This document shows, one piece after another, positions 19,762 to 41,480 of a stretch of 64,000 nucleotides of DNA. Numbering within the stretch: the stretch's first letter is position 1; the number at the start of each line of letters is the position of its first letter. The stretch is from Haloterrigena sp. KLK7 (GTDB lineage: Archaea; Halobacteriota; Halobacteria; Halobacteriales; Natrialbaceae): contig NZ_CP149787.1 of NCBI RefSeq assembly GCF_037914945.1, forward strand, positions 868,001 to 932,000, written 5' to 3'. The position numbers and the translations under genes were made by a program. Under the pieces are notes generated by a model, which saw only the letters and a list, made by a program, of their open reading frames with translations, did no database searches and had not been told where the DNA came from.

Positions 19762-20628
19762 TCAGCGGAGTTTCGCGAGCACGGCGGCCACGAGGGCGGC
19801 GAGCGCAGCGAGCGCGGGGCCGACGGCGAAGCCGGGGACCGACTCGGCGTCGTCGTCCGACTCACTGTCGTCGGCGTTCGATCCCGAATCGTCGTCCGAT
19901 GGGGAACTGTTTCCGTCGGATTCGGAGCCATTGCCGTCGGATTCGGACCCGTCACCGTCGGATCCCGAGTCGGGACCGTCGGACTCCGAACCGTTGGGAT
20001 CCGATCCCTCATCGCCGGTTCCGGGCGTCGTCTCGGGCGTGTCGTCGCCGATCGTCAGCGTTCCGGCCTCGAGCGACGGATCGATAGCGCTGCCGTCGTC
20101 GTCGTCGACCTGCATCGACGTCACGCGCAGGTCCGTCTGACCGTCGTCGCCGCCGGCCACGTCGATCGTCGCCAGCGTGACGTTCGTCGCGCCGGCCGCG
20201 ATCTCATCGTCGAGATCGGCGGCCTCGACGGTGACGGTCTCCCCGTCGGCGCTCACGTCGGGATCGGTCGTCAGTCCGAAGTGGTCCGGATAGCTGGCGT
20301 TCGCGACGGTCGCGACGTCGCCGTCGTCGACGGCGAGCGTGAGCTTGAATCCCGCGAGGCCGTCGGGTACGTCGGTCAGCGAGACGCGGAGACCGGCGGT
20401 CGAATCGGGCTCGACCGTCGCGTCGGAGACGACCAGCGTGGGCTCAGTTCCGCTCGAGGCGGAATCGGTCGACGCGGCGCCGACCGAACCGAGCGCGGCC
20501 GTTCCGGCGACCGTTCCGATCGCGAGCGCGACGACGAGCGTCCGGAACGCGCGCCGGCGGAGCGCCGAGCGATCCCTGCGGCGCGATTCGGAACCGGACG
20601 TCGACGCGTCGGTGTCGTTTCGAATCAT
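19762..20628 (-). CDS. Surface-anchored cohesin-like protein with PGF-CTERM-like tail
   Basis: 288 aa. An Arg-rich N-terminus leads to a hydrophobic export segment (about residues 30-55). A cohesin-like beta-sandwich follows (about 60-195: VPDGLAGFKLTLAV, SYPDHFGL, VTLATIDVAG). Then comes a Ser/Asp/Gly-rich linker (about 200-262) and a C-terminal PGFAVGP plus hydrophobic helix plus AKLR (265-288), the tripartite pattern of archaeosortase substrates. The cohesin segment is visibly related to those inside the two PhoX proteins upstream. It starts 3 bp after the PhoX stop codon, so it is in the same operon and could be the wall anchor that receives their dockerins. Binding is inferred. Confidence 0.85.
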   Translation of the reverse strand: MIRNDTDASTSGSESRRRDRSALRRRAFRTLVVALAIGTVAGTAALGSVGAASTDSASSGTEPTLVVSDATVEPDSTAGLRVSLTDVPDGLAGFKLTLAVDDGDVATVANASYPDHFGLTTDPDVSADGETVTVEAADLDDEIAAGATNVTLATIDVAGGDDGQTDLRVTSMQVDDDDGSAIDPSLEAGTLTIGDDTPETTPGTGDEGSDPNGSESDGPDSGSDGDGSESDGNGSESDGNSSPSDDDSGSNADDSESDDDAESVPGFAVGPALAALAALVAAVLAKLR

Positions 20629-20631
20629 CGG

Positions 20632-23307
20632 TTACAGTTCGTCGTAGAGGGCGACGACGTCGTCGTAGTCGATGCGACCGTTCTCGTTGAAGTCGAAGGC
20701 GGCCTCGTTGAGCCGGACGGACTCGTCCTCGAGGTTCTCGAACAGCAGGGTGACGTCCTCGTAGTCGAGGCGACCGTTACCGTTGACGTCCTCGAAGAGC
20801 CCGTCGCCGTCGAGGTCGGTCGGGGCGCGGCCCGAGCCCTCGCCGACCGGCGGCGGGCCGACGACCACGACGCCCGGACGAGCCTGAGTGTCGATCGCCG
20901 TCCCGTCGTCGTCGTCCAGCGAGTGGACCTCGATCGTGACGTCGGTCGTTCCGGTCCCGACGCCCTCGAGGTCGAGCGTCGCGAGCGTGACCTCCTCGCG
21001 GGTGGCACCGATCTCGTTCTCGAGGTCGGCGAAGCGGAACTCGACGCTCGAGCCGTCGCCGTCGATCGACGGCCCCGAGGTGAGTTCCAGCGCGTCGTGG
21101 TAGCTGGCGTCGGTGATCTCGGCGACGTCGGCGTGCTCGACCGAGACCGTGATGCGACCGCCCGCGAGCCCGTCCGGAATCGACGACAGCGTCAGGTCGA
21201 CCGTCCCGGTCGCGCCGTGGCTGACCGCCACCGAACTCGCCTCGAGAACCGCCGGCGGCTCGTAGACCCACAGCGCGTCGTTCTCGTACGTGCGGCCGAA
21301 GCTGCCCTTGTCCTCACAGAGGAGCACCCGACCGTCGTCCATGACCATCACGTTGTCGACGTTGATGAGCGACTCGTCGAGCAGCGATTCGGAATCGCTC
21401 GCGTTCGGCCCGACGACGACCGGCTCGAGCGTCGAGACGTCGTAGTCCGCCTCGAGCTCGGCCCGGTAGAGGACGCCAGTGTCGACCTCGTCGAACCGGA
21501 GGTCGCCGTGCTCGTCGGTCATGTAGCCGCTGAGCGAGGAGATGCCGAAGTAGATGAAGTCGCCGGGCTCGGCCTCGTCGTGGGAGTCGATCCCCTCGGC
21601 CTTGTTGAACTCGATGCTGGCGCCGATCTCCTTGGCCGCGGCGCGGGTCTCGAGGAAGGGGACGCGCCGCAGGTCCTCGTCGACGCCGTCGGGGCCGCGC
21701 TCCTCGTACTGCTCGGCCCACTCGACGACCTCCTCGTCGGTGATGTAGTCCTGATTGCCGTTGATGGCGACTTCCTCGTCGGCTTCGGCGAGCGCAGCCT
21801 CGAGGTCCTCGGTCCAGTCGGTCTCGGCGTGGGTCTCGAGGTAGTCGACCTGCGTGACGTCGTCGTACTCGGCGATCCAGGACTCGACCTCGGCGTTGCT
21901 CGCGGTACCGAGTTCGAGCCACTCGACATCGAGATCGGTCTCGGCGACCGGCCCCTCGCCGATCTCGGTGGCCTTGATCGCGTACAGGGTGCCGCGGACG
22001 TCCATCCGGTCGTCGTAGCTCGGGATCGGTTCCTCGGCGACGAACTTGTAGATGCCCTTCGCGCCGCCGTCGGAGGCGAGGTAGACGGTCCGCTCGTCGG
22101 GGAGGACTTCGGGACACTCCCACGCGGCGCGGCCGAAGACGTGGTGTTTGACCGGGATCGGCTCCTCGGCGGTCGGTTCGGTGATCTCGACGATGTACCC
22201 GTACCGGTAGCGGTTCGGGAACGCCTCGTCCCCGATGGGGCGGGGCGTGTTCACGGTCTTGGTGCCGTCCCCGTCCTGATCCTCCGCCGCGTCATCGACC
22301 TCGACTTCGGTCATATCGATCGGCTCGGCGCCGAGCTGATAGGCCATCTTCTCGGTGCCCCGGTTGTTGTTCAGTCCCATCGGATACGCGTGCTCCTCGC
22401 CGAAGAGGTCGCTGAGCGAATCGTGGACGTCCAGAATGTTGGGGCGGTTCCAGAACTCGCTGCCGCCGCGAAGGCCGACGCCGCTGCCGGCCTCGACGAT
22501 ATCGCTGACCGTCGCGAGCCCGTTGACGCGCGGATGGCCGTACTCCTCTTCGGCCGACAGCGGCGTCTCCCACGGACTGAGATCGCCGTAACAGTTGACC
22601 TTCGTTCCGCCGACCTCGCGGAACGCCTCGGTGTTCTCGAGTTCCATCGCGTTCTCGAGGTCGGCCTGCCAGTAGCCGTCCTCGTCGCGGTAGAGCGGCG
22701 TTCGGGAGATCGCGCCCGGTCGCGTCTCGTTGTTGGTGAAGAGGTACCCCTCCGTGCCCTCGTCGTTCGTCGCGACGAAGAAGTTCATGTCGGCCTGTTC
22801 GCCGACCCCCTCGTAGGCCTCCGCGGCGATTTCTTCGAGGTCCGTGCCGTCCGGCGTCTGCGGGTGACCGAACCGTTCGTCTCCGCCGTTGATCTCCTCG
22901 CCGGTATGGACGAGGAGACGGTACTGACCGGCCGCCGAGAGGACCTGTCGCTCCTCTTGTTTGGTTCGCGGCGCCTCGAGTTCCTCGAACTCGTCGTTCT
23001 TCCCGTTGAAGGTGAACCGGAAGTCGTCGAAGACGCCGACCCCGCCCGTGTCGAAGGGAGCGACGTTCTCCGGGCTGGGACCCTGCAGACTGTAGAGGAG
23101 TTCCCCCGTCTCGAAGACGAACGGTCCGGTGACTTCGGCGCCGAGCGCCGTCGTCGAGAACCGATCGATGTTCCCCTTGACGTAGGGCGCCTCGAGCGTG
23201 TCGTGTTCCTCCGGGTCGTCCTCGCCGCTCGCGACGCCGACCGTTCCCGCGCCGATCGCCGCTGCCGCCGACGATGCCATCAGTTTCCGCCTGGTAAATT
23301 CGACCAT
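20632..23307 (-). CDS. Secreted PhoX-type phosphatase with cohesin-like and dockerin domains (copy 1)
   Basis: 891 aa. TRRKLMASSAAAA is a Tat signal. Residues about 40-680 are a PhoX (DUF839) beta-propeller, with NCYGDLSPWETPLSAEE (from N238), the equivalent of the metal-binding Cys/Glu segment of PhoX, and GIYKFVAEEP later. Residues 686-817 form a cohesin-like domain. From 831 there are two Ca-binding dockerin repeats, DVNGNGRLDYED and DFNENGRIDYDD. PhoX enzymes release phosphate from phosphomonoesters using Ca and Fe. Having both cohesin and dockerin would allow self-linking or attachment to the adjacent anchor. TTTATAAT lies 39 nt upstream of the ATG. Confidence 0.88.
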   Translation of the reverse strand: MVEFTRRKLMASSAAAAIGAGTVGVASGEDDPEEHDTLEAPYVKGNIDRFSTTALGAEVTGPFVFETGELLYSLQGPSPENVAPFDTGGVGVFDDFRFTFNGKNDEFEELEAPRTKQEERQVLSAAGQYRLLVHTGEEINGGDERFGHPQTPDGTDLEEIAAEAYEGVGEQADMNFFVATNDEGTEGYLFTNNETRPGAISRTPLYRDEDGYWQADLENAMELENTEAFREVGGTKVNCYGDLSPWETPLSAEEEYGHPRVNGLATVSDIVEAGSGVGLRGGSEFWNRPNILDVHDSLSDLFGEEHAYPMGLNNNRGTEKMAYQLGAEPIDMTEVEVDDAAEDQDGDGTKTVNTPRPIGDEAFPNRYRYGYIVEITEPTAEEPIPVKHHVFGRAAWECPEVLPDERTVYLASDGGAKGIYKFVAEEPIPSYDDRMDVRGTLYAIKATEIGEGPVAETDLDVEWLELGTASNAEVESWIAEYDDVTQVDYLETHAETDWTEDLEAALAEADEEVAINGNQDYITDEEVVEWAEQYEERGPDGVDEDLRRVPFLETRAAAKEIGASIEFNKAEGIDSHDEAEPGDFIYFGISSLSGYMTDEHGDLRFDEVDTGVLYRAELEADYDVSTLEPVVVGPNASDSESLLDESLINVDNVMVMDDGRVLLCEDKGSFGRTYENDALWVYEPPAVLEASSVAVSHGATGTVDLTLSSIPDGLAGGRITVSVEHADVAEITDASYHDALELTSGPSIDGDGSSVEFRFADLENEIGATREEVTLATLDLEGVGTGTTDVTIEVHSLDDDDGTAIDTQARPGVVVVGPPPVGEGSGRAPTDLDGDGLFEDVNGNGRLDYEDVTLLFENLEDESVRLNEAAFDFNENGRIDYDDVVALYDEL

Positions 23308-23720: not shown

Positions 23721-26348
23721 TTACAGTTCGTCGTAGAGGGCGACGACGTCGTCGTAGTCGATGCGACCGTTCTCGTTGAAGTCGAAGGCGGCCTCGTTGA
23801 GCCGGACGGACTCGTTCTCGAGGTTCTCGAACAGCAGGGTAACGTCCTCGTAGTCGAGGCGACCGTTACCGTTGACGTCCTCGAAGAGCCCGTCACCGTC
23901 GAGGTCGGTCGGGGCGCGGTCCGAGTCCTCGTCGACCGGCGGTGGACCGACGACCACGACGCCCGGGCGGGGCTGGGTGTCGATCGCCGTGCCGTCATCG
24001 TCGTCCAGCGAGTGGACCTCGATCGTGATATCGGTCGTTCCGGTCCCGACGCCCTCGAGGTCGAGCGTCGCGAGCGTGACCTCCTCGCGGGTGGCACCGA
24101 TCTCGTCTTCGAGGTCGGCGAAGCGGAACTCGACGCTCGAGCCGTCGCCGTCGATCGTCGGCCCCGAGGTGAGTTCCAGCGCGTCGTGGTAGCTGGCGTC
24201 AGTGATCTCGGCGACGTCGGCGTGCTCGACCGAGACCGTGATGCGACCCCCCGCGAGCCCGTCAGGGATCGACGACAGCGTCAGGTCGACCGTCCCGGTC
24301 GCGCCGTGGCTGACCGCGATCGAGTCGGCGCGCAGGACCGCCGGCGGCTCGTAGACCCATAGCGCGTCGTTGGTGTAAGAGCGGCCGAAGTTCCCCTTGT
24401 CCTCACAGAGGAGCACCCGACCGTCGTCGAGGACCATCACGTTGTCGACGTTGAGGGGCGACTCGTCGACGATCGACTCGCGATCCGTCGCGTCGGGACC
24501 GACGACGACCGGCTCGAGCGTCGAGACGTCGTAGTCCGCCTCGAGTTCGGCCCGGTAGACGACGCCGCCGTCGACGCGATCCATCCGAATGTCGCCCTCG
24601 TCGTCGCTCATGCCGTCGTTGAGCTCCGAGATCCCGATGTAGAGGAAGTCGCCGGGCTCGGCGTCGTCGAGCGAGTCGATTCCCTCGGCCTTCCGGAACT
24701 CGACGCTGGCGCCGATCTCCTTGGCCGCGGCGCGGGTCTCGAGGAAGGGGACGCGACGGAGGTCCTCGTCGACGCCGTCGGGACCGCGCTCCTCGTACTG
24801 CCGGGCCCACTCGAGGATTTCCTCGTCAGTGATGTAGTCCCGATTGCCCTCGACCGCGACCGTCTCGTCGGCTTCGGCGAGCGCTGCCTCGAGGTCCTCG
24901 GCCCAGTCGGTCTCGGCGTGGGTCTCGAGGTAGTCGACCTGCGTGACGTCGTCGTACTCGGCGATCCAGGACTCGACCTCGGCGTTGCTCGCGGTGCCGA
25001 GTTCGAGCCACTCGACCTCGAGGTCGACCTCGGCCGGGGGACAGTTCTTCGCCGCGTCGTCGTTCGTGACGCGGGCGGCGTACAGCGTGCCGCAGACGTT
25101 CATCCGGTCGTCGTAGCTCGGGATCGGCTCCTCGGCGACGAACTTGTAGATGCCCTTGCTCGCGCCGTCGGAGGCGAGGTAGACGGTCCGCTCGTCGGGC
25201 ATGAACTCGGGACACTCGAAGGCCGCCCGCCCCATGACGTGGTGTTTGACCGGAGTCGGCTCCGCGGCGGTCGGGTCGGTGATCTCGACGATGTGGCCGT
25301 ACCGGTAGGGGTTGGGGTAGACGTCACCGATCGGGTCCGTCGTGTTCGTCTCACCGTCCTGATCGACGGGCTCGGCCCCGAGGTAGTAGGCCAACATCTC
25401 GAGTCCCGCCAGCGCCCACGTTCCCTGCGGGTCCCAGCCCTCGTCGAACAGGTCGCCGTCGTCGCCGAGTTCGCCCGCGATCTCGGTCGGGTTCGGTCGG
25501 TTCCAGAACGCCGCCGCGCCGCGGAGACCGACGCCGCTGCCGGCCGCGTCGATATCGCTGACCGTCGCCGGCCCCGACACGCGCGGATGGCTGTAATCCT
25601 CTTCCGAGGACATCGGCGTTCCCCACGGACTCAGGTCGCCGTAGCAGTTGATCCGGGTGCCGCCGACCTCGCGGAACGCCTCGCGGTTCTCGAGTTCCAT
25701 CGCGTTCTCGGGGTCGGCCGTCCAGCCGTCCTCGCCGCGGCTGATCGGGGTCCGGCTGATACAGCCCGGACTCGTCTCGTTGTTCGTAAAGAGGTAGCCC
25801 CCGAGCCCGTCCTCGTCGGTCGGCACGAAGAAGTTCATGTCGGGGTTGTAGCCGACGTCGCCGTACCGGGACCCGACGTAGTCGGCGATGTCGGTGCCGT
25901 CGGGCGTCTGGGGGTGCCCCCACCGCTCGTCGCCGCCGTTGATCGGGTCGCCCTCCTGGACGAGGATGTCGTACTCGCCGCCGGCGACCTGGACGCGCCC
26001 CTGTGCCGCGTCCGATCGCGGGGCCTCGAGCTCGTCGAACTCGTCGTTTTTCCCGTTGAAGGAGAACCGGTGCCCCGCGAGGACGCCGACCGCCGCCGTA
26101 TCGTACGGCGCGGGGTTGTCCCGGCTCGGGTGCTGGAGACTGAAGAGGATCTCGCCGTTCTCGAACACGAACGGTCCGGTGACCTCCGCGCCGCGAGCCG
26201 TGGTCGCGAGGCGCTTGATGTCGCCGTTGATTCGCGGTGCTCCGGGCGTGTCGCCGTCCTCCTGTCCGGAGACCGTCCCGATCGCCCCAGCGCCGATCGC
26301 GGTCGCTGCCGAGGTTGCCATCAGTTTTCGCCTGGTGAATTCGACCAT
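23721..26348 (-). CDS. Secreted PhoX-type phosphatase with cohesin-like and dockerin domains (copy 2)
   Basis: 875 aa paralogue of the gene just downstream. Same order: Tat signal, PhoX propeller with NCYGDLSPWGTPMSSEE (C235), cohesin-like domain (about 670-801) and a dockerin with two Ca loops from residue 815. The last 330 or so residues are almost identical to copy 1, also at DNA level, whereas the first 400 differ clearly. This suggests gene conversion or selection on the binding modules while the catalytic parts diverged, perhaps toward another substrate. It keeps SPWGT, closer to classical PhoX than the SPWET of copy 1. Confidence 0.88.
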   Translation of the reverse strand: MVEFTRRKLMATSAATAIGAGAIGTVSGQEDGDTPGAPRINGDIKRLATTARGAEVTGPFVFENGEILFSLQHPSRDNPAPYDTAAVGVLAGHRFSFNGKNDEFDELEAPRSDAAQGRVQVAGGEYDILVQEGDPINGGDERWGHPQTPDGTDIADYVGSRYGDVGYNPDMNFFVPTDEDGLGGYLFTNNETSPGCISRTPISRGEDGWTADPENAMELENREAFREVGGTRINCYGDLSPWGTPMSSEEDYSHPRVSGPATVSDIDAAGSGVGLRGAAAFWNRPNPTEIAGELGDDGDLFDEGWDPQGTWALAGLEMLAYYLGAEPVDQDGETNTTDPIGDVYPNPYRYGHIVEITDPTAAEPTPVKHHVMGRAAFECPEFMPDERTVYLASDGASKGIYKFVAEEPIPSYDDRMNVCGTLYAARVTNDDAAKNCPPAEVDLEVEWLELGTASNAEVESWIAEYDDVTQVDYLETHAETDWAEDLEAALAEADETVAVEGNRDYITDEEILEWARQYEERGPDGVDEDLRRVPFLETRAAAKEIGASVEFRKAEGIDSLDDAEPGDFLYIGISELNDGMSDDEGDIRMDRVDGGVVYRAELEADYDVSTLEPVVVGPDATDRESIVDESPLNVDNVMVLDDGRVLLCEDKGNFGRSYTNDALWVYEPPAVLRADSIAVSHGATGTVDLTLSSIPDGLAGGRITVSVEHADVAEITDASYHDALELTSGPTIDGDGSSVEFRFADLEDEIGATREEVTLATLDLEGVGTGTTDITIEVHSLDDDDGTAIDTQPRPGVVVVGPPPVDEDSDRAPTDLDGDGLFEDVNGNGRLDYEDVTLLFENLENESVRLNEAAFDFNENGRIDYDDVVALYDEL

Positions 26349-33150: not shown

Positions 33151-33286
33151 CGGGGTATCGGGATTCATCGTCCGCCCACATATAATTTTTCTGATAATTT
33201 TTTACCCGGCCTCGAGTTAATGCATTGCTACCGGAGCGATCGGTCCGACCGCGGTCTTTTTGCGAGTGGGGCGGCAGCCACCGTGT

Positions 33287-34564
33287 ATGACTCTCGATCC
33301 GGTCCACTTCGACGGCATCGCGCAACTCGCGAGGCGGATCGATCACGGGGCCGACGAGCGCGATCGCCGCGCCTTCGCCGAGACGGTCTGGACCGAGTTC
33401 CTCGACCCGCTGATCGACCGGGACGGTCGGACCGTCCTCGAGCCGGTCGACGAGCGGCACCGCCGTCACGTCGACTGCGAGGACGTCGCGCTCCGCGATC
33501 GATCGTTCGCGAGCGAGCACGGCCTCGACGCGGGAACTATCAATCCGACGACGTTCAAAAACGGCCTCGTCATCGACATCGCGCAGGCGGCGATGGCCGC
33601 CACGCCGAGCGACCTCGACCGTCACCGCTCGCGGACCACCGTGATGACGGTCCACTCCAACGACGAGACGATGACCGTCGACGAGTCGTGGGGGAAGTTC
33701 GACGAGGGCTACAGTCGGAGCCGCGCCGTCAAGATCCCGCCGCTGCCGCGCTTCGCCGAGGGGGTCGTCCACGCGCTCGCGCTCTACCTCGCCGAGAGCA
33801 AACACGCCCTCGAGAACGCCGACGCGGTCGACGACTTACTCGTACTCGACGGCCCGATCTACCCCCGCGGGCTCCTCCGCTGGGCCGATCAACACCCCGA
33901 CCTCGCGGACTTCCTGCTCGAGGATCCCCGACCGACGACGGTGCTGGAGAACTACGTGCGACTGGTCGAGCGGTTCGTCGAGCGGGACGTGCCGCTCGTC
34001 GGGTTCGTCAAGAACCCGGCGACGCGGGTCATCACGCGAACGCTGAAGAACAAACGGGACGTCGACGTCGCCACCCCGTGGAACGACGACGCGGCGCTGT
34101 TCACGCGCCTCCTCGAACGCGGCGAGTACGTGGACGACGTCGACGGCCAGCGCTGGGAACGCCACACGTCGGCGCTGACCTACACGAACTGGTTCCGCTC
34201 CCGCGGCGGGGTCGATCGCCCCCTCTCGGTCGAGGGCGACGCGCTCGGCGTCGAGCGCGACCTGTCGCTCGAGTCCTACGAGGTGACGTTCTTCGTCGTC
34301 TACGATCCGCGCGACGATCTCGTCTACCGGATCGAGGCCCCCTACGCGTTCACTCGGGAGCCGGAGACCCGGCGGGCGGTGACGATGCAGGTCCTGCAGG
34401 ACGTCGCCGTCGCCCACGGCCCACCGACGGTCGTCGAGAAGGCCGACGAGCTCGCCAAAATCAGCCGCTCGGAGAAGGCGTCGCTGCGCGAGACCCTCGA
34501 GACGCAGTTCGACACGTCGCGGGACCGGACCTACGACGACCACCGGTGGGACGAGGAGTACTAG
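33287..34564 (+). CDS. nurA: DNA double-strand-break repair nuclease NurA
   Basis: 425 aa protein of the NurA nuclease/RNase H-like fold, which works with the HerA translocase in DNA end resection with Mre11-Rad50. The catalytic Asp motif is seen as LVLDGPIYPRG, with further acidic residues in FFVVYDPRDD. The long form and TPWNDDAALFTRLL are typical of haloarchaeal NurA. The likely start is the ATG at 33287. herA lies about 5 kb downstream on the same strand. Confidence 0.85.
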   Translation: MTLDPVHFDGIAQLARRIDHGADERDRRAFAETVWTEFLDPLIDRDGRTVLEPVDERHRRHVDCEDVALRDRSFASEHGLDAGTINPTTFKNGLVIDIAQAAMAATPSDLDRHRSRTTVMTVHSNDETMTVDESWGKFDEGYSRSRAVKIPPLPRFAEGVVHALALYLAESKHALENADAVDDLLVLDGPIYPRGLLRWADQHPDLADFLLEDPRPTTVLENYVRLVERFVERDVPLVGFVKNPATRVITRTLKNKRDVDVATPWNDDAALFTRLLERGEYVDDVDGQRWERHTSALTYTNWFRSRGGVDRPLSVEGDALGVERDLSLESYEVTFFVVYDPRDDLVYRIEAPYAFTREPETRRAVTMQVLQDVAVAHGPPTVVEKADELAKISRSEKASLRETLETQFDTSRDRTYDDHRWDEEY

Positions 34565-34658
34565 CGCCGCCGACGGTTCGATCGAGTACTGTGACAAACG
34601 TACTGGATCCGGCAGCACATAGCAACGATAGTGGTAATTCCTTTCGCTGACTGTCACG

Positions 34659-37028
34659 ATGACAGGAACGTCCGGACGTGACGACAGTGACTCGACCGAC
34701 TCGGGTATCGATCCGCGCCGCCGTCGATTGCTCGGCATGGCCGCAGGCGCGTCGGCCGCCGCCGTGCTCCCGACGACCGGGAGCGTCGGAGCGGAATCCG
34801 CCGAGACGGTCACGATCGTCCACGACACGCACTTCCACGGCCGGTTCGAGGACGCCGAGGCGGCCGCCCTGAACCTTCCGCGGTACTACACGGTCGTCCG
34901 AGACGCGCTCGCTGACGCCGATAACGCCCTGTTCGTCGGGAACGGCGACGACATCGCGCCCTCGGTGATGGGCCTCGAGTTCGAGGGCGAGCACATGATC
35001 GAGGCGCTGAACGCCACGGAGCTCGACGTCGTCGGCGTCGGCAACCACGAGTACGATTTCGGCGCCGACGTCGCGACCGAGCGGTTCGAGGAGAGCGAGT
35101 TCCCGTGGGTCGTCGCGAACCTGCTCGACGACGCGGGGGAGCCGGTTCCCGGAACCGAGCGGTGGGCAACGTTCGAGGAAGGGGACCTGACGGTCGGCGT
35201 CTTCGGCCTCGTCTCGACGAACTTCCACTCGCTGACCGACTATCCGGAATCGTGGCAGGTGCTCGGCTACGTCGAGGGCGCGCAGGAAGCGGTCGACGCG
35301 CTCCGCGAGGAGGCAGGTGCCGACGTCGTCGTCTGTGCCTCGCACGTCTCGACGGGCGTCCACTACACGCTCGCCGAGGAGGTCGACGGCCTCGATGCGA
35401 TCGTCGGCTCCCACTCCAACGTCGTCTTCGACGAACCCGAACGGGTCGACGGGACGGTCATCAGCGAGTTCGGCGACGAGTTCGATCACGTCGGCTCGCT
35501 CACGCTCGACGCCGACGGCGAGCTCGTCGACTGGCAACGGACCGATCTCTTACCCCCCGAGGCGGATCCCGACCCGGTCGTCGACGAGTACGAGGAGATC
35601 GGCGTCCGCTACGCGGACGAGATCGAGGAAGACGACGCCCTCGCGGCCGTGGCCGACGACTGGTCCGAGAAACTCGAGGCGGAGCTCGGAGCGCCGGTGG
35701 TCGAAAGCGAGGTCGAACTGAACGCGACGTTCGACAACTACGCGATCGAGACCAACTGGGGGAACCTCGTGACCGACGCGATGCGAACCGTCGGCGAGAT
35801 CGGCGACATCGAGGTCGACATCGCCGCCCAGAACGGCGGCGGCATTCGCAGCGGGTCGACGTACGGCCCCGGCGAGATCACGGGCGCCGACGTGATGAAC
35901 ATCCTGCCGTTCCCCAACGAGATCGAGGTCGTCGAACTGACCGGCGAGGACGTCGTCGCGTACCTCGAGGAGGCGATCCGTCCGCATCCGTCGGAGAACT
36001 ACGGTACGCAGCCGGCGATTCAGGTCTCGGGAATCTCCTACGAGTGGTGGGGACACGACGGCGAGGCCCGGGTCGAGAACGTCTTCGTCGGCGGCGAGCC
36101 CATCGATCCCGACGAGACGTACTCGCTCGCGCACAACGACTACTCGATCGGGAACTCCGACGTGCTCTCGGAGGCCGAGGTCGTGCTCGCCTCCGGTCAG
36201 TATCAGGGCCCGTTCGTCATCGACTGGCTCGAGGAACGGGACACCGTCGCCCCCGAACGGGAGAACCGGATGCTCCGAGTCGACGAGACGGTCGGCGAGG
36301 CGTCGGTCGCCGCCGGCGACGGCGAGGCCGTGCTCACCGTCGACGTCCCGGACGGCGCCGACGAGGTCCTGCCCGACACGTTCCGGGCCGTGATCCGGAC
36401 CGGCGCCGACCTCGAGGCGAAATCGGCGACCCGGAACGGCGACAGCGTCGATGTGACGTTCGATACCGACGACTTGCTCGCCCTCGTCGCGGACGTCGAC
36501 GAGCCGGCGCTGCGACTGTTCGGCGGCTACGACCCCGATCAGGAGTACTGGGACTACGACTTCGAGGTACCGACCTCGAGCGGCTACGACCACTTCCGAC
36601 TCCGCGCGGAGGTGAGCGCGGCCACCCTCGAGGGCCTCGGCGACGACTCGAACGGCAACGATGGGACGGACGACGATACCGACTCGAACGAGACCGACGA
36701 GGGTGACGGTTCGGGCGATTCGGGCAACGGGTCTACTGACGACGGTTCGGGCAACGGGTCTACTGACGACGGTTCGGGCAACGGGTCTACTGACGACGGT
36801 TCGGGCGACGGGTCTGCTGACGACGGTTCGGACGATTCGGGCAACGGGTCTTCCGGCAATGGATCGGACGACGGGTCTTCCGGCAATGGATCGGACGACG
36901 GGACGCCCGGCTTCGGTCCGCTCGGCGCGATCGCCGGCGGGAGCGTCGGCGGCTACCTCTACTCGCGTCGTCGGGCCGCCGGCGACGACGAACCCACCGA
37001 GACCTCGACCGACGGAGCGGACGACTGA
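34659..37028 (+). CDS. Surface-anchored 5'-nucleotidase/UshA-like metallophosphoesterase
   Basis: 789 aa. The N-terminus RRRRLLGMAAGASAAA is a Tat signal. A metallophosphoesterase domain follows with DTHFHGR (about residue 55), GNGDD, GNHEYD (about 128) and GSHSN. The 5'-nucleotidase C-terminal domain has ETNWGNLVTDAMR and NGGGIRSG. Next is a Gly/Ser/Thr/Asp linker made of 27-bp direct repeats, then PGFGPLGA plus hydrophobic stretch plus SRRR, a PGF-CTERM-type sorting signal, here followed by an extra acidic tail. It would split nucleotides or nucleotide sugars at the cell surface. A cohesin-like protein follows in the same direction. Confidence 0.88.
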   Translation: MTGTSGRDDSDSTDSGIDPRRRRLLGMAAGASAAAVLPTTGSVGAESAETVTIVHDTHFHGRFEDAEAAALNLPRYYTVVRDALADADNALFVGNGDDIAPSVMGLEFEGEHMIEALNATELDVVGVGNHEYDFGADVATERFEESEFPWVVANLLDDAGEPVPGTERWATFEEGDLTVGVFGLVSTNFHSLTDYPESWQVLGYVEGAQEAVDALREEAGADVVVCASHVSTGVHYTLAEEVDGLDAIVGSHSNVVFDEPERVDGTVISEFGDEFDHVGSLTLDADGELVDWQRTDLLPPEADPDPVVDEYEEIGVRYADEIEEDDALAAVADDWSEKLEAELGAPVVESEVELNATFDNYAIETNWGNLVTDAMRTVGEIGDIEVDIAAQNGGGIRSGSTYGPGEITGADVMNILPFPNEIEVVELTGEDVVAYLEEAIRPHPSENYGTQPAIQVSGISYEWWGHDGEARVENVFVGGEPIDPDETYSLAHNDYSIGNSDVLSEAEVVLASGQYQGPFVIDWLEERDTVAPERENRMLRVDETVGEASVAAGDGEAVLTVDVPDGADEVLPDTFRAVIRTGADLEAKSATRNGDSVDVTFDTDDLLALVADVDEPALRLFGGYDPDQEYWDYDFEVPTSSGYDHFRLRAEVSAATLEGLGDDSNGNDGTDDDTDSNETDEGDGSGDSGNGSTDDGSGNGSTDDGSGNGSTDDGSGDGSADDGSDDSGNGSSGNGSDDGSSGNGSDDGTPGFGPLGAIAGGSVGGYLYSRRRAAGDDEPTETSTDGADD
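36723..36900 (+). repeat. In-gene 27-bp tandem repeats coding the Ser/Gly/Asp linker
   Basis: Units built on GACGGTTCGGGCAACGGGTC repeat with a 27-bp period four times, followed by two units of another 27-bp word (GGCAATGGATCGGACGACGG...). They encode the flexible wall-spanning linker and are prone to copy-number change. Confidence 0.8.
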
Positions 37029-37094
37029 TCGGCCGATGCGACCATGCTCTCGCCTCCCCAGCGCGACGATCAGCGTCAAACGAGGAACCGCGCG

Positions 37095-37964
37095 ATGAGA
37101 GTCGCTACGGGCCGACGGACGATCGCCGTCGGAAGCGGCCTGCTACTGGGAACGGCCGTCCTCGCGCTGCTGACCGTCTCCCTGCTCGGGTTCGCCGCCG
37201 GTACGGCAGCCGCCGGCGATCGGTCCGCGGCCGTCCTGCCGTCGGAACGGACGATCGACGCCGACCCCGGCGAGGCGGTGACCGTCGACGTCGTCATGCA
37301 GAGCGACGGCGGCTACGGCGGCGAAGGCGTCGAGTCGGTCACCCTCGTCGCCCGGTACAATCCCGAGTATCTCGAGATTACCGACGTCGAACGGGGGCCG
37401 TGGCTCGAGCAGGGCGCGGAGACGGAGGTCCGCGCCGAACGGGCGCTCGCACACGACGACGGTACCGCCGTCCTCGAGCAGCGGCGCGATCCCGTCGCCG
37501 ACGGCGCGACCGGCAACGCCGAACTCGCGACGCTCACGATCGCAGTCGCCGAAGACGCGCCGCCGTCGGAGGCGGCGATCTCGTTCGAGGAGAGCCGCGT
37601 CGAACTCCTGCGCGGGACGCCGATTCCGGTCTTCGATACGAACGCCACCGTCTCGATCGACGGCGGGGGCGACGAGGCACCACCGTTCGATCATCCGGAT
37701 CCGGACGAGCTCGAGACGACGGCCGTCGACGACGAAGCTACTGACGGCGCCCCGTTGTCGGGGACCGAATCGGCGACGGAAGACGAGTCGACGGAGACCG
37801 ACGGCGCTGAAAATGGAAGCGGCGAGACCGAGCGGGACGACGGGGACGCCGTTCCGAGACTCCCGGCACCGATCACGGCGGCGATCGTCGGCGGAACCGC
37901 TCTCGTCGTCGCCGTCCGATCGCGCCGAAGTGCCGGCGCTCGAGCTGGCTCGGAACGGAACTAG
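37095..37964 (+). CDS. Cohesin-like surface protein beside the 5'-nucleotidase
   Basis: 289 aa. A signal peptide (VGSGLLLGTAVLALLTVSLLGF) is followed by a cohesin-type domain (about residues 48-180): ADPGEAVTVDVVM opening strand, VESVTLVARYNPEYLEI, AELATLTIAVAE. Next comes an acidic Thr/Glu/Asp linker and a C-terminal hydrophobic helix (PAPITAAIVGGTALVVAV) with basic end RSRRSAGAR, so it is membrane-anchored. Start at 37095 begins MRVATGRR. It lies 66 bp after the nucleotidase, so co-transcription is likely. It could hold a dockerin enzyme at the surface; the only dockerins in the window are in the two PhoX proteins. Confidence 0.75.
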   Translation: MRVATGRRTIAVGSGLLLGTAVLALLTVSLLGFAAGTAAAGDRSAAVLPSERTIDADPGEAVTVDVVMQSDGGYGGEGVESVTLVARYNPEYLEITDVERGPWLEQGAETEVRAERALAHDDGTAVLEQRRDPVADGATGNAELATLTIAVAEDAPPSEAAISFEESRVELLRGTPIPVFDTNATVSIDGGGDEAPPFDHPDPDELETTAVDDEATDGAPLSGTESATEDESTETDGAENGSGETERDDGDAVPRLPAPITAAIVGGTALVVAVRSRRSAGARAGSERN

Positions 37965-38080
37965 CCGTCGATTACCCGGATAACAGGTCTTGGGAAACGG
38001 TCGTGTCCCCCCGACCAAACCGGCATCGGCAAACCCGTGAGTTCACAGCCGGGGTAATCTGCTGGCCGGATTGCCCACGG

Positions 38081-38117
38081 AGGAATCCCACGACTTCAGT
38101 CGTGTGGAGGACGTCAA
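38081..38117 (+). mobile_element. Right-end scar of an IS200/IS605 (TnpB-type) element
   Basis: GGAATCCCACGACTTCAGTCGTG followed by TGGAGGACGTCAA matches, to my memory, the hairpin and terminal word (GGAGGATGTCAA-like) of haloarchaeal IS200/IS605 right ends. The stem is CCCACGAC/GTCGTG with loop TTCA. No tnpA or tnpB is left in the 120 bp before it. It abuts the stop codon of the minus-strand gene at 38114. Confidence 0.5.
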
Positions 38118-38455
38118 TCGTCGGTTTCGCTGTTTTTCTCGACCTCGAGTTCGACGTCGTCCGGATCGACCCCGATGCGGGCGAACTGCGTCCGGACGTG
38201 TTCCTTGGCGCCCTCGAGGGCCTGCTCGCGGGTGTCGAAGCCGCGGGGCATGGGGGATTCGAACGCGAGGTGAACCTCGCGGCCGTCGATCAGCTGGGTC
38301 GAACCGCCGCTGTCGACCTCGTAGAACTCGTCGCAGACCCAGACGTAGGCGGCGTCTTCGTCGGGCGCGCCGCGAAACGAGGGCGCTCGTTCGCCCCGTT
38401 CGTACAGCGTGCCAGTGAGTTCGGTGCCGCCGGCACGACCGCGGATCAGTATCAT
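38114..38455 (-). CDS. Haloarchaeal protein resembling DUF7113
   Basis: 113 aa, starting MILIRGRAGGTELTGTLYERGERAPSF-like (only the first part is quoted from memory of the family). Also visible are YVWVCDEFYEVDSGG and a helical C-terminal half (REQALEGAKEHVRTQFARIGV). No membrane segment. I associate this with the small DUF7113 family of haloarchaea; role unknown. Its 3' end touches a transposon-end scar. Confidence 0.75.
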   Translation of the reverse strand: MILIRGRAGGTELTGTLYERGERAPSFRGAPDEDAAYVWVCDEFYEVDSGGSTQLIDGREVHLAFESPMPRGFDTREQALEGAKEHVRTQFARIGVDPDDVELEVEKNSETDD

Positions 38456-38767
38456 ACCGCTCTTTGGGCTCGTACGCGCAAAAAGACAGTGGCACGAGTC
38501 TCAGGGACGTTTCCCACCGTCTGTCGGTCTCGAACCGGATTCGCCGCCGAAACGGACCGGCCGACCCCGCGGTCGGGATCGAACGCAGCGGTTAGTATCG
38601 ACGAATCTCACGATTATCCTACCGTCTAGAAGCGAGTATTCTTCCCTCTCGAGGGGGTTTCGCGGCGGATTAGCGCGTTAGTCGGCTATTACGCGAGTAA
38701 CCATTCGTTCCGGATCCAAATCGTTTTGGAAATGGGCTTAACCCCGTTCCACCGCTGCCTGTTAGTA
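38456..38767. other. Divergent promoter region
   Basis: About 310 bp between divergent starts. A CTTTTTGCG element lies about 34 nt before the DUF7113-like gene and a GGCTTAACC element about 28 nt before the wHTH gene at 38768. Otherwise no feature. Confidence 0.45.
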
Positions 38768-39397
38768 ATGAGTTCGAAAGCGTCCATCGGCGGTGACAGC
38801 GACCGGGGCCCATTGACAGACGTCCCTGAGGAGTGTTACGACGTCCTCCGACACCCGCGCCGGCTTCGCATCCTCGCGACGCTCGGCGCCCGTCGCACGC
38901 GACTGTCGCTGATGGAACTGACGACGGCGATCGTCGAGAACGAAGACCTGGACGTCCCGACCGGTAAGGCCCGCCACGACGTCCGCATCAGTCTCGTCCA
39001 CAACCACCTCCCCCGACTGGCCGAGTACGGCCTCGTCGAGTTCGACGCCGAGACCGGCGCCGAACTGGTCGACGAACCGCCGGTCCACCCCGCCGATCTC
39101 GTCAGCCTGCTCGATCTGTGCGAGGACCCGGAGGGACAGCGCGTGCTCGAGGCGATCGTCCATCCCGTCCGAATGCGGGTCCTCGCGATGCTGTCGGGCG
39201 CCGAACGGACCGTGTCCGTCGACCGGCTCGCGTCGGAACTCGCCGCCAGCGACGTCGGCGCGGACGACCCCGAACGCGCGAAGATTTCGCTCTACCACGC
39301 ACAGCTCCCCATGCTGGCCGACGTCGGCGCACTGGAGTTCGACGCCGACGCCGGACTGGTCACGCGACGCGAGCAGACCGCGTCGATCCTCCGCTGA
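38768..39397 (+). CDS. Transcription regulator with two tandem winged-helix domains (DUF7344-like)
   Basis: 209 aa. Two repeats of about 85 residues, each of the form (L/I)xHPxRxRxLAxL...SLxHxxLPxLA(E/D)xGxxEFD. The first contains VLRHPRRLRILATLG and NHLPRLAEYGLVEFD, the second IVHPVRMRVLAMLSG and AQLPMLADVGALEFD. DUF7344-type winged helices are common haloarchaeal regulators. Start at 38768 removes an unlike leader. A role toward the neighbouring herA is possible but not shown. Confidence 0.8.
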   Translation: MSSKASIGGDSDRGPLTDVPEECYDVLRHPRRLRILATLGARRTRLSLMELTTAIVENEDLDVPTGKARHDVRISLVHNHLPRLAEYGLVEFDAETGAELVDEPPVHPADLVSLLDLCEDPEGQRVLEAIVHPVRMRVLAMLSGAERTVSVDRLASELAASDVGADDPERAKISLYHAQLPMLADVGALEFDADAGLVTRREQTASILR

Positions 39398-39623
39398 GCG
39401 CCCCTCGTCACCGCCGAACTCGCCGCCGGTCTACCGCTGGCGCGATCGGCCCTCCACCGACAACCACCGTCGCCCGGCCCGTTGACGCGGTTTCCGTTTC
39501 TCCTCGACGCCCCTGGTCGCAGGCTTCGGCCGTTCCGTTCTGTCGTCAGTCCCGATCGTCTGTCCCGACGAACCAGTGTGCCGCCTCGAAAAGTAGTTGT
39601 GGGGGCGGCCTGATGGACCTGAT

Positions 39624-41480
39624 ATGACCGATCTGGGTGACTTCGGCGATTTCAACGCCGGGTCCGGCGCCGATTCCGGCGACAGAGACGACGACGTGGG
39701 CGGTTCCGACGGATCGACGGGGACCCCGTCGAGTGCCGGCGGATCGACAGGTACGGACGGCGGAACGACCGACGAGTTCGAACCGACGCCCGTCGAGCCG
39801 CGAGGCGAGGACGTCGGTATCGGCGCGATCTGCGTCTCGCAGGGACTGCGCGTCGCCGAGGACGGCGACGAGACCACCCTGCGCGCCTACGTCACCCGCG
39901 GCAACCGTTCGTCGATCCGCATCGGGAGCTATCTGCTCGCGCCCTATCCCGACGGCGAGACCCTGTTCTGTCGTATCACCGGCCTCGAGTACGCCCAGCA
40001 GTACCACGCAGACGACGCCACCGAGATCCACGCGCGGCGCGCGATGCGATCGGACGGGGTCGACGAGGCCGACTACAAGTTCGTCGCGGAACTCGAGCCC
40101 GTCGCAGTGCTGTACGACGACGACGGCGAACTCAAACGGCGGATGACCGACCGCGTCCCCAAGCCCCAGACGGTGATCCGGCAGGCCGACGATACCGCCG
40201 AGATCAAGACCGGGCTGAAGATGCCCGACGACGGCGTCTTCCTCGGCCACCTCTCGGTCGGCGGCGAGAAGGTGCGGACCGCGGCGTCGCCGCCGACCAT
40301 CGATTATCGGCTGAAAGACGACTACGAGGCCGGCGACCCGCTGGTCTACCGACACACGCTGATCGCCGGCGGAACGGGGTCGGGGAAGACCCACGGCGCG
40401 AAGAACATCCTGCGCCAGTACCTCGCCGAGGATCGCACCTATCCGATGGACGACGGCCGCGAGGTCCGGCCCGCCGTCGTCCAGTTCGACCCGCAGGACG
40501 AGTACGCCCAGATGCACGACGACAACCCCGACCTGGACGACGAGTTCGCGCGCCGCCTCGAGCGAGAGGGAATCGCCTACGGCGGCCACGAGGACACGAC
40601 GGCGTTCGTCCCGAAGGTGGGATCGGCGTCGTACGCGGCGGGCCACCACCGCGCCCGGCAGGTCGAGTTCACGATTCCGTTCTCGATGGTCTACGACAAC
40701 CCCTGGCTGGTCGCGGGCAGCGGGCTGAACGACAACCAGTACGGCGCGCTGGTCAGCGTCCTCCTGCCGCGGTTCCGGAAGCAGTACGGCGAGGACGGCA
40801 CCTACGAGGAGTTCACGACGTTCCTCGACGACCCCGCGCTGCGCGAGGAGCTCGACGAGTCCGGCCGGGTCCACGAGGCGACCTTCGACGCGGTCCGGCG
40901 GCGCGTGCTCGGCTTCGGCCACGTCTTCGATCAGGACGCCCGCCCGATCACCGACCTCGTTCACGAGTTCGTCCGTCCCGGCGGGCTGACCGTCGTCCCG
41001 ACCTACCACATCAACGACAGCCGGGCGACCGAAACGATCGTGCTCGCGGTCTCCTCGCTGCTCATCGACCAGAAGCTCTCGAACGACCCGTTCTACGACC
41101 GGATCAAGGAGACGCCGCTGGTCCTCGGGATGGACGAGGCCCACAACTTCCTGACCGACGCCGACTCGGTACAGGCGGGGAAAGTGATCTCGAAGTTCAC
41201 CGAGGCCGCCAAACAGGGCCGCAAGGAGCGACTCGGCCTCTTTCTGATCACGCAAGACCCCCAGGACATCCACGACGCCGTCTTCAAGCAGATCAACACC
41301 ACCGTCGTCCTGAACCTCGGCGACGAGGACGCCATCAAGAGCGTCAATATCCCGAGCAACCTCGAGTCGAAGGTGCCCTACATGGAGAAGGGGCAGATGG
41401 TCGTCTACTCGCCGGACAACTCCGAACCCGTCGAACTGATCGGCCTCTCGAAGTGTCTGACCCGGCACGGCCGGGACTGA
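39624..41480 (+). CDS. herA: HerA-type DNA translocase ATPase
   Basis: 618 aa. An N-terminal low-complexity Gly/Ser/Asp segment (1-55) leads to a HAS-barrel-like domain, then a RecA-like FtsK/HerA ATPase. Walker A is GGTGSGKTHGAKN (about residues 249-261) and Walker B GMDEAHNF (about 502), followed by the sensor ITQDPQDIHDAVFKQ. HerA hexamers work with NurA in end processing at DNA breaks. nurA lies 5 kb upstream in the same orientation with unrelated genes between. Confidence 0.88.
   Translation: MTDLGDFGDFNAGSGADSGDRDDDVGGSDGSTGTPSSAGGSTGTDGGTTDEFEPTPVEPRGEDVGIGAICVSQGLRVAEDGDETTLRAYVTRGNRSSIRIGSYLLAPYPDGETLFCRITGLEYAQQYHADDATEIHARRAMRSDGVDEADYKFVAELEPVAVLYDDDGELKRRMTDRVPKPQTVIRQADDTAEIKTGLKMPDDGVFLGHLSVGGEKVRTAASPPTIDYRLKDDYEAGDPLVYRHTLIAGGTGSGKTHGAKNILRQYLAEDRTYPMDDGREVRPAVVQFDPQDEYAQMHDDNPDLDDEFARRLEREGIAYGGHEDTTAFVPKVGSASYAAGHHRARQVEFTIPFSMVYDNPWLVAGSGLNDNQYGALVSVLLPRFRKQYGEDGTYEEFTTFLDDPALREELDESGRVHEATFDAVRRRVLGFGHVFDQDARPITDLVHEFVRPGGLTVVPTYHINDSRATETIVLAVSSLLIDQKLSNDPFYDRIKETPLVLGMDEAHNFLTDADSVQAGKVISKFTEAAKQGRKERLGLFLITQDPQDIHDAVFKQINTTVVLNLGDEDAIKSVNIPSNLESKVPYMEKGQMVVYSPDNSEPVELIGLSKCLTRHGRD

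Follow-up and report, generated by a model that had tools for sequence, protein, structure and literature searches.

The window, a stretch of 64,000 nucleotides from Haloterrigena sp. KLK7, carries on its forward strand a gene for a secreted UshA-like 5'-nucleotidase (34659..37028, 789 amino acids), here designated NT5, which is followed by a gene for a secreted, membrane-anchored protein with a single cohesin domain (37095..37964, 289 amino acids), designated COH. NT5 begins with a Tat leader of the RRRR type, and its C-terminal domain matched the 5_nucleotid_C family (PF02872, E = 5.5e-30); solved 5'-nucleotidases in the PDB matched with E = 7e-26. The C-terminal part comprises an acidic low-complexity linker of the type (GNGSTDDGS)n, encoded by 27-bp tandem repeats (36661..36911, + strand), and a PGF-CTERM-like motif with a transmembrane segment (36891..36971, + strand; TPGFGPLGAIAGGSVGGYLYSRRR; TIGR04126). 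The tail scored 17.5 bits with TIGR04126 and thus missed the curated cut-off of 24.5 bits; a gene for archaeosortase A (ArtA) is present in the genome (TIGR04125, E = 3.1e-102). An earlier interpretation of this DNA, referred to as the sequence-only reading, had described a Tat-secreted 5'-nucleotidase with a PGF-CTERM-like tail. The leader, the Pfam family and the PDB matches bear this out, and the tail is of the named kind, though below the curated cut-off.

NT5 carries the metallophosphatase motifs HDTHFHG, GNGDD, GNHExD, SH, GSHS and GGIR, which are kept in most of 34 homologues. The HDTHFHG motif (34815-34847), conserved in the family, has a histidine where DxHG normally has an aspartate metal ligand, and an Asp-x-His stands two residues before this histidine. 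At the second histidine of the last motif NT5 has asparagine, and its relatives have mostly glycine, asparagine or glutamate. Given the conservation of the motifs in most homologues together with two deviating positions, NT5 is likely to be enzymatically active as a nucleotidase. Compared with the UshA/5'-nucleotidase family (PF02872; 2z1a, 1ush), NT5 is alike in both domains and in most catalytic motifs, whereas HxHG with a preceding HDTH replaces DxHG, and the Tat leader, the acidic linker and the anchor-like tail are additional. The score for the UshA equivalog (NF007109) was 116.9 bits, far from the cut-off of 600 bits.

The ATG of COH at position 37095 lies 66 bp past the stop codon of NT5. 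The encoded protein consists of a signal sequence, a single domain (37215..37688, + strand) and a C-terminal hydrophobic anchor (37851..37931, + strand), at which the alignment shows a PGF-CTERM-like VPGF in relatives and VPRL here. The score for the Pfam cohesin family (PF00963) is borderline, with 23.0 bits in hmmscan and 24.3 bits in the genome search at a gathering cut-off of 24.1. AlphaFold2 yielded a confident model of the domain (pLDDT 89.6, pTM 0.85), which matched PDB structures with E = 6.5e-11 in Foldseek and with Z = 16.7 and an rmsd of 2.2 over 137 residues in VIA; the best 45 rows of Foldseek and all 50 rows of VIA listed for this model were cohesins or cohesin-like modules. As modelled, COH has a genuine cohesin beta-sandwich fold. 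The anchored cohesin 66 bp downstream of the nucleotidase, as claimed by the sequence-only reading, was therefore right in coordinates, strand and spacing, and its fold is supported by AlphaFold2 and the structure searches.

COH shares its fold with type I cohesins (CipA, 1aoh/1ohz) and with the non-cellulosomal cohesin of Archaeoglobus fulgidus (2xdh), with Z values of 14-16, and is, like the latter, a lone non-cellulosomal module. It differs from these known cohesins in its changed hot-spot residues, in its retention across genomes without dockerins and in its genomic partners, which are metal-binding or DyP-like proteins or a nucleotidase. A multi-cohesin scaffoldin of the cellulosome type is not encoded by COH, as it carries a single cohesin and the genome has only two dockerins. 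A third Pfam cohesin match in the same genome (C1:1429684) was not counted, being a partial match (51 of 139 positions) in a secreted-protease-like protein.

At a distance of 8.3 kb from the NT5-COH locus, in agreement with the 8 kb given earlier, lies an operon on the reverse strand which encodes two PhoX-like phosphatases, PhoXa (23721..26348; PF05787, PF00404) and PhoXb (20632..23307). In each of them, a cohesin domain and a dockerin are part of the same polypeptide, the dockerins being encoded at 23736..23882 (PhoXa) and 20647..20793 (PhoXb). The first 138 residues of the PhoX tail, modelled for PhoXb, are a predicted cohesin (VIA Z = 16.5, rmsd 1.9 over 130 residues); the cohesin of PhoXa was assigned by homology, as this part is 95% identical to the modelled PhoXb tail. 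Beside PhoXb, the operon encodes a cohesin-like protein with a PGF-CTERM-like anchor, designated PCOH (19762..20628, - strand), which has no Pfam cohesin match and was recognised by its identity of 36-40% to the PhoX-internal domain. The count of two cohesin loci, COH and PCOH, was correct, and the PhoX proteins add two further cohesin domains. In relatives, a PCOH-type match usually follows directly after the PhoX tail. A congener (G062, L131) has PhoX in the same neighbourhood, with neither NT5 nor COH there and without a detectable PCOH. The PhoX-type cohesin-dockerin tail appears to be shared by S8 subtilases of relatives.

The sequence-only reading had proposed that COH could serve as a second anchored docking site which captures the dockerins of PhoX beside NT5 and so couples nucleotide breakdown to phosphate release. 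The genome-wide list of dockerins which it called for turned out to be exclusively phosphoesterase-borne, with exactly two dockerins, both on PhoX, as determined with PF00404 and a lineage-specific profile (A7); the latter was added because PF00404 missed several PhoX dockerins in the family search and thus underestimates their number, and all dockerin searches used type-I profiles. As the only two dockerins are both on PhoX, 8 kb away, the docking idea was reasonable, and its two premises, a cohesin fold and a dockerin repertoire related to phosphoesterases, agree with the prediction and the census. Linkage of the PhoX and NT5-COH loci, within about 10-14 kb, is also conserved in many relatives. 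Against this idea, the PhoX dockerins are already supplied with cohesins, by PhoX in cis and by PCOH in the same operon. Since cohesin and dockerin occur in the same chain of both phosphatases, PhoX chains could in principle self-assemble, ended by PCOH; the low confidence of the dockerin part of the tail model (pLDDT about 40) does not allow an intramolecular cohesin-dockerin contact to be claimed.

A comparison of CipA and COH by profile alignment (E = 1.3e-9) likewise speaks against docking of PhoX. The CipA contact residues N37, L83, A85 and E86, of which we take A85 and E86 to be dockerin contacts, are not kept in COH, which has S, E, R and R, respectively, and the arginine at the Glu86-equivalent position is nearly invariant. 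In CipA, Leu83 and Asn37 are the hot spots (PMC12484212), and Asn37 is the specificity residue. The cohesins of PhoX and PCOH appear to have an invariant Ala-Asp at the equivalent strand, as placed by strand positions in the model.

Of the 121 family genomes, 99 have relatives of COH; 39 of these 99 contain no dockerin by either of the two profiles, and across the 121 genomes COH and dockerins were not associated (odds ratio 0.88, p = 1). The occurrence of COH in dockerin-free genomes argues that docking is not its general function. Among COH orthologues, those of NurA-HerA type, present in 62 genomes, tend to co-occur with dockerins (odds ratio 2.7, from counts that ignore relatedness), although no dockerin was detected in 17 of these genomes, G067 among them; PhoX dockerins occur in 33 of these 62 genomes versus 13 of the other 59 (odds ratio 4.0), a pattern which follows genus and again ignores relatedness. 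The NT5-COH pair itself is present in 18 family genomes from seven genera. Some dockerin is found in 17 of these (p 0.001, relatedness ignored) and a PhoX dockerin in 11, which favours docking of PhoX, but the pair persists without a PhoX dockerin in seven genomes and with no dockerin detected at all in one (G067). When stratified within genera, the pair and PhoX were not positively associated (odds ratio 0.11, with few informative strata). As relatedness was ignored, the occurrence of COH hardly varies within genera and the odds ratio obtained by stratification is below 1, the enrichments lend weak support to docking. The dockerin proteins that were read in pair-bearing genomes without a PhoX dockerin are S8 subtilases, most of which combine a cohesin-like domain with a dockerin in a single chain, as assigned by eye. 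With the PhoX cohesins in cis and in the operon, COH in dockerin-free genomes, its contact residues replaced and its company of DUF7350 and DyP-like proteins described below, the presentation of a PhoX dockerin by COH is not supported. COH is probably not a docking site of the nearby PhoX phosphatases, and the coupled reading as a whole appears rather unlikely to us.

NT5, COH, a gene for a DUF7113 protein (38114..38455, - strand) and one for a DUF7344 HTH protein (38726..39397, + strand) stand between NurA (33260..34564, + strand; PF09376), which is upstream of NT5, and HerA (39597..41480, + strand), and the whole region spans 33260-41480. Forty loci showed variations of the order MetB, [PCOH-PhoX], iPGM, NurA, [NT5-COH], DUF7113, DUF7344-HTH, [COH], HerA. 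COH occupies two slots, either after NT5 or, in genomes without NT5, shortly before HerA, and seven genomes have both; the HerA-proximal copy is directly upstream of HerA, mostly by 33-60 bp, in many genomes. Other copies lie 9-130 bp after a DUF7350 gene and sometimes overlap with it. The notion that both cohesin loci adjoin phosphoesterases holds in this genome and fails for most relatives of COH, which are not next to one. Long open frames which seemed to be nucleotidase-cohesin fusions (L064, L094) were dismissed as such, since their extra length results from reading the upstream DUF7350 gene out of frame.

This distribution also bears on the possibility that COH has no role with NT5, being an envelope protein of the NurA-HerA neighbourhood or there by chance synteny, with NT5 a mere neighbour. 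The NT5-free copies upstream of HerA fit such a view, as do the strong synteny of the whole region and two genomes (G077, G079) which keep COH beside NurA without NT5 and are nested in the NT5-linked group of the COH tree. Nevertheless, NT5 directly precedes COH in all 18 pair-bearing genomes of seven genera, and a relative of NT5 heads a cluster of DyP-like, P19-like and COH genes in another family. This recurrent association argues for a link between NT5 and COH, so that mere adjacency seems quite unlikely. The NT5-COH pair is real and heritable.

A scan of genome contigs with a closer COH alignment (A2) gave 14 loci. Outside the family, DUF7350 adjoins COH in 10 of 11 loci, DUF7405 precedes DUF7350 in nine, and in two a nucleotidase relative of 50-54% identity heads the cluster. 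DUF7350 aligns with FtrA-P19 metal-binding proteins (E = 0.0013) and has many invariant histidine and methionine residues, and DUF7405 is weakly similar to deferrochelatase/DyP peroxidases (E = 0.004). Because DUF7350 occurs nearly everywhere in the order (208 of 243 genomes), its presence is uninformative and only its adjacency was used. A cluster of DUF7405, DUF7350, cohesin and MenA is present in the own genome as well (L129, 795-5146; C1, about 3.54 Mb), and its gene content suggests that it handles metals at the surface, with the cohesin as a subunit. The likeness to EfeOB and P19-FtrA metal uptake clusters is given through DUF7350 (FtrA-P19) and, weakly, through DUF7405 (deferrochelatase/DyP); unlike these, the NT5-COH locus lacks both DUF7350 and DUF7405, and a cohesin-fold protein is added. 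In a maximum-likelihood tree, the NT5-linked COHs (17 rows and two without NT5) group with DUF7350-linked COHs, and the deeper branches are nearly all DUF7350-linked. The tree was midpoint-rooted, and the branch on which the NT5-linked COHs come together has weak support (80/18).

From the folds, the gene order, the distribution and this tree we infer that COH is a non-cellulosomal surface module which comes from the DyP-like/P19-like/cohesin cluster, is now paired with NT5 and works without dockerins, a reading whose chances of being right or wrong we hold to be about even. NT5, secreted by the Tat pathway and tethered to the surface, would strip phosphate off extracellular nucleotides. COH would belong to an old haloarchaeal exoprotein cluster of DUF7405, DUF7350 and cohesin, sometimes headed by NT5; DUF7405 and DUF7350 would have been lost from the NT5-COH locus in the lineage of the window, which would have left a duplicate of COH paired with NT5 alone. 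As a membrane-anchored protein-protein module, COH most likely holds or organises an exoprotein encoded by a neighbouring gene at the envelope, independent of dockerins, and the PhoX dockerins would be served by the cohesins of PhoX and PCOH. This reading has to face the dockerins found in 17 of the 18 pair-bearing genomes and the association of NurA-HerA-type COHs with PhoX dockerins. More tentatively, and with somewhat less confidence than we would need to favour it, the dockerin-free cohesin-fold protein could be one subunit, with DUF7405 and DUF7350, of a surface complex in haloarchaea to which the 5'-nucleotidase was recruited; in the Haloterrigena/Natronorubrum/Halopiger/Natrialba group, the nucleotidase would have taken the place of the metal-binding members at this locus.

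Cohesins of archaea have long been on record, and their function is considered unclear from genomes alone (PMC9012536). The COH family, conserved in dockerin-free genomes beside a few defined exoproteins, offers a testable case of a cohesin role that does not involve dockerins. PhoX, whose chain combines a cohesin with a dockerin and which is accompanied by an anchored cohesin, represents a simple candidate for a self-assembling surface phosphatase.
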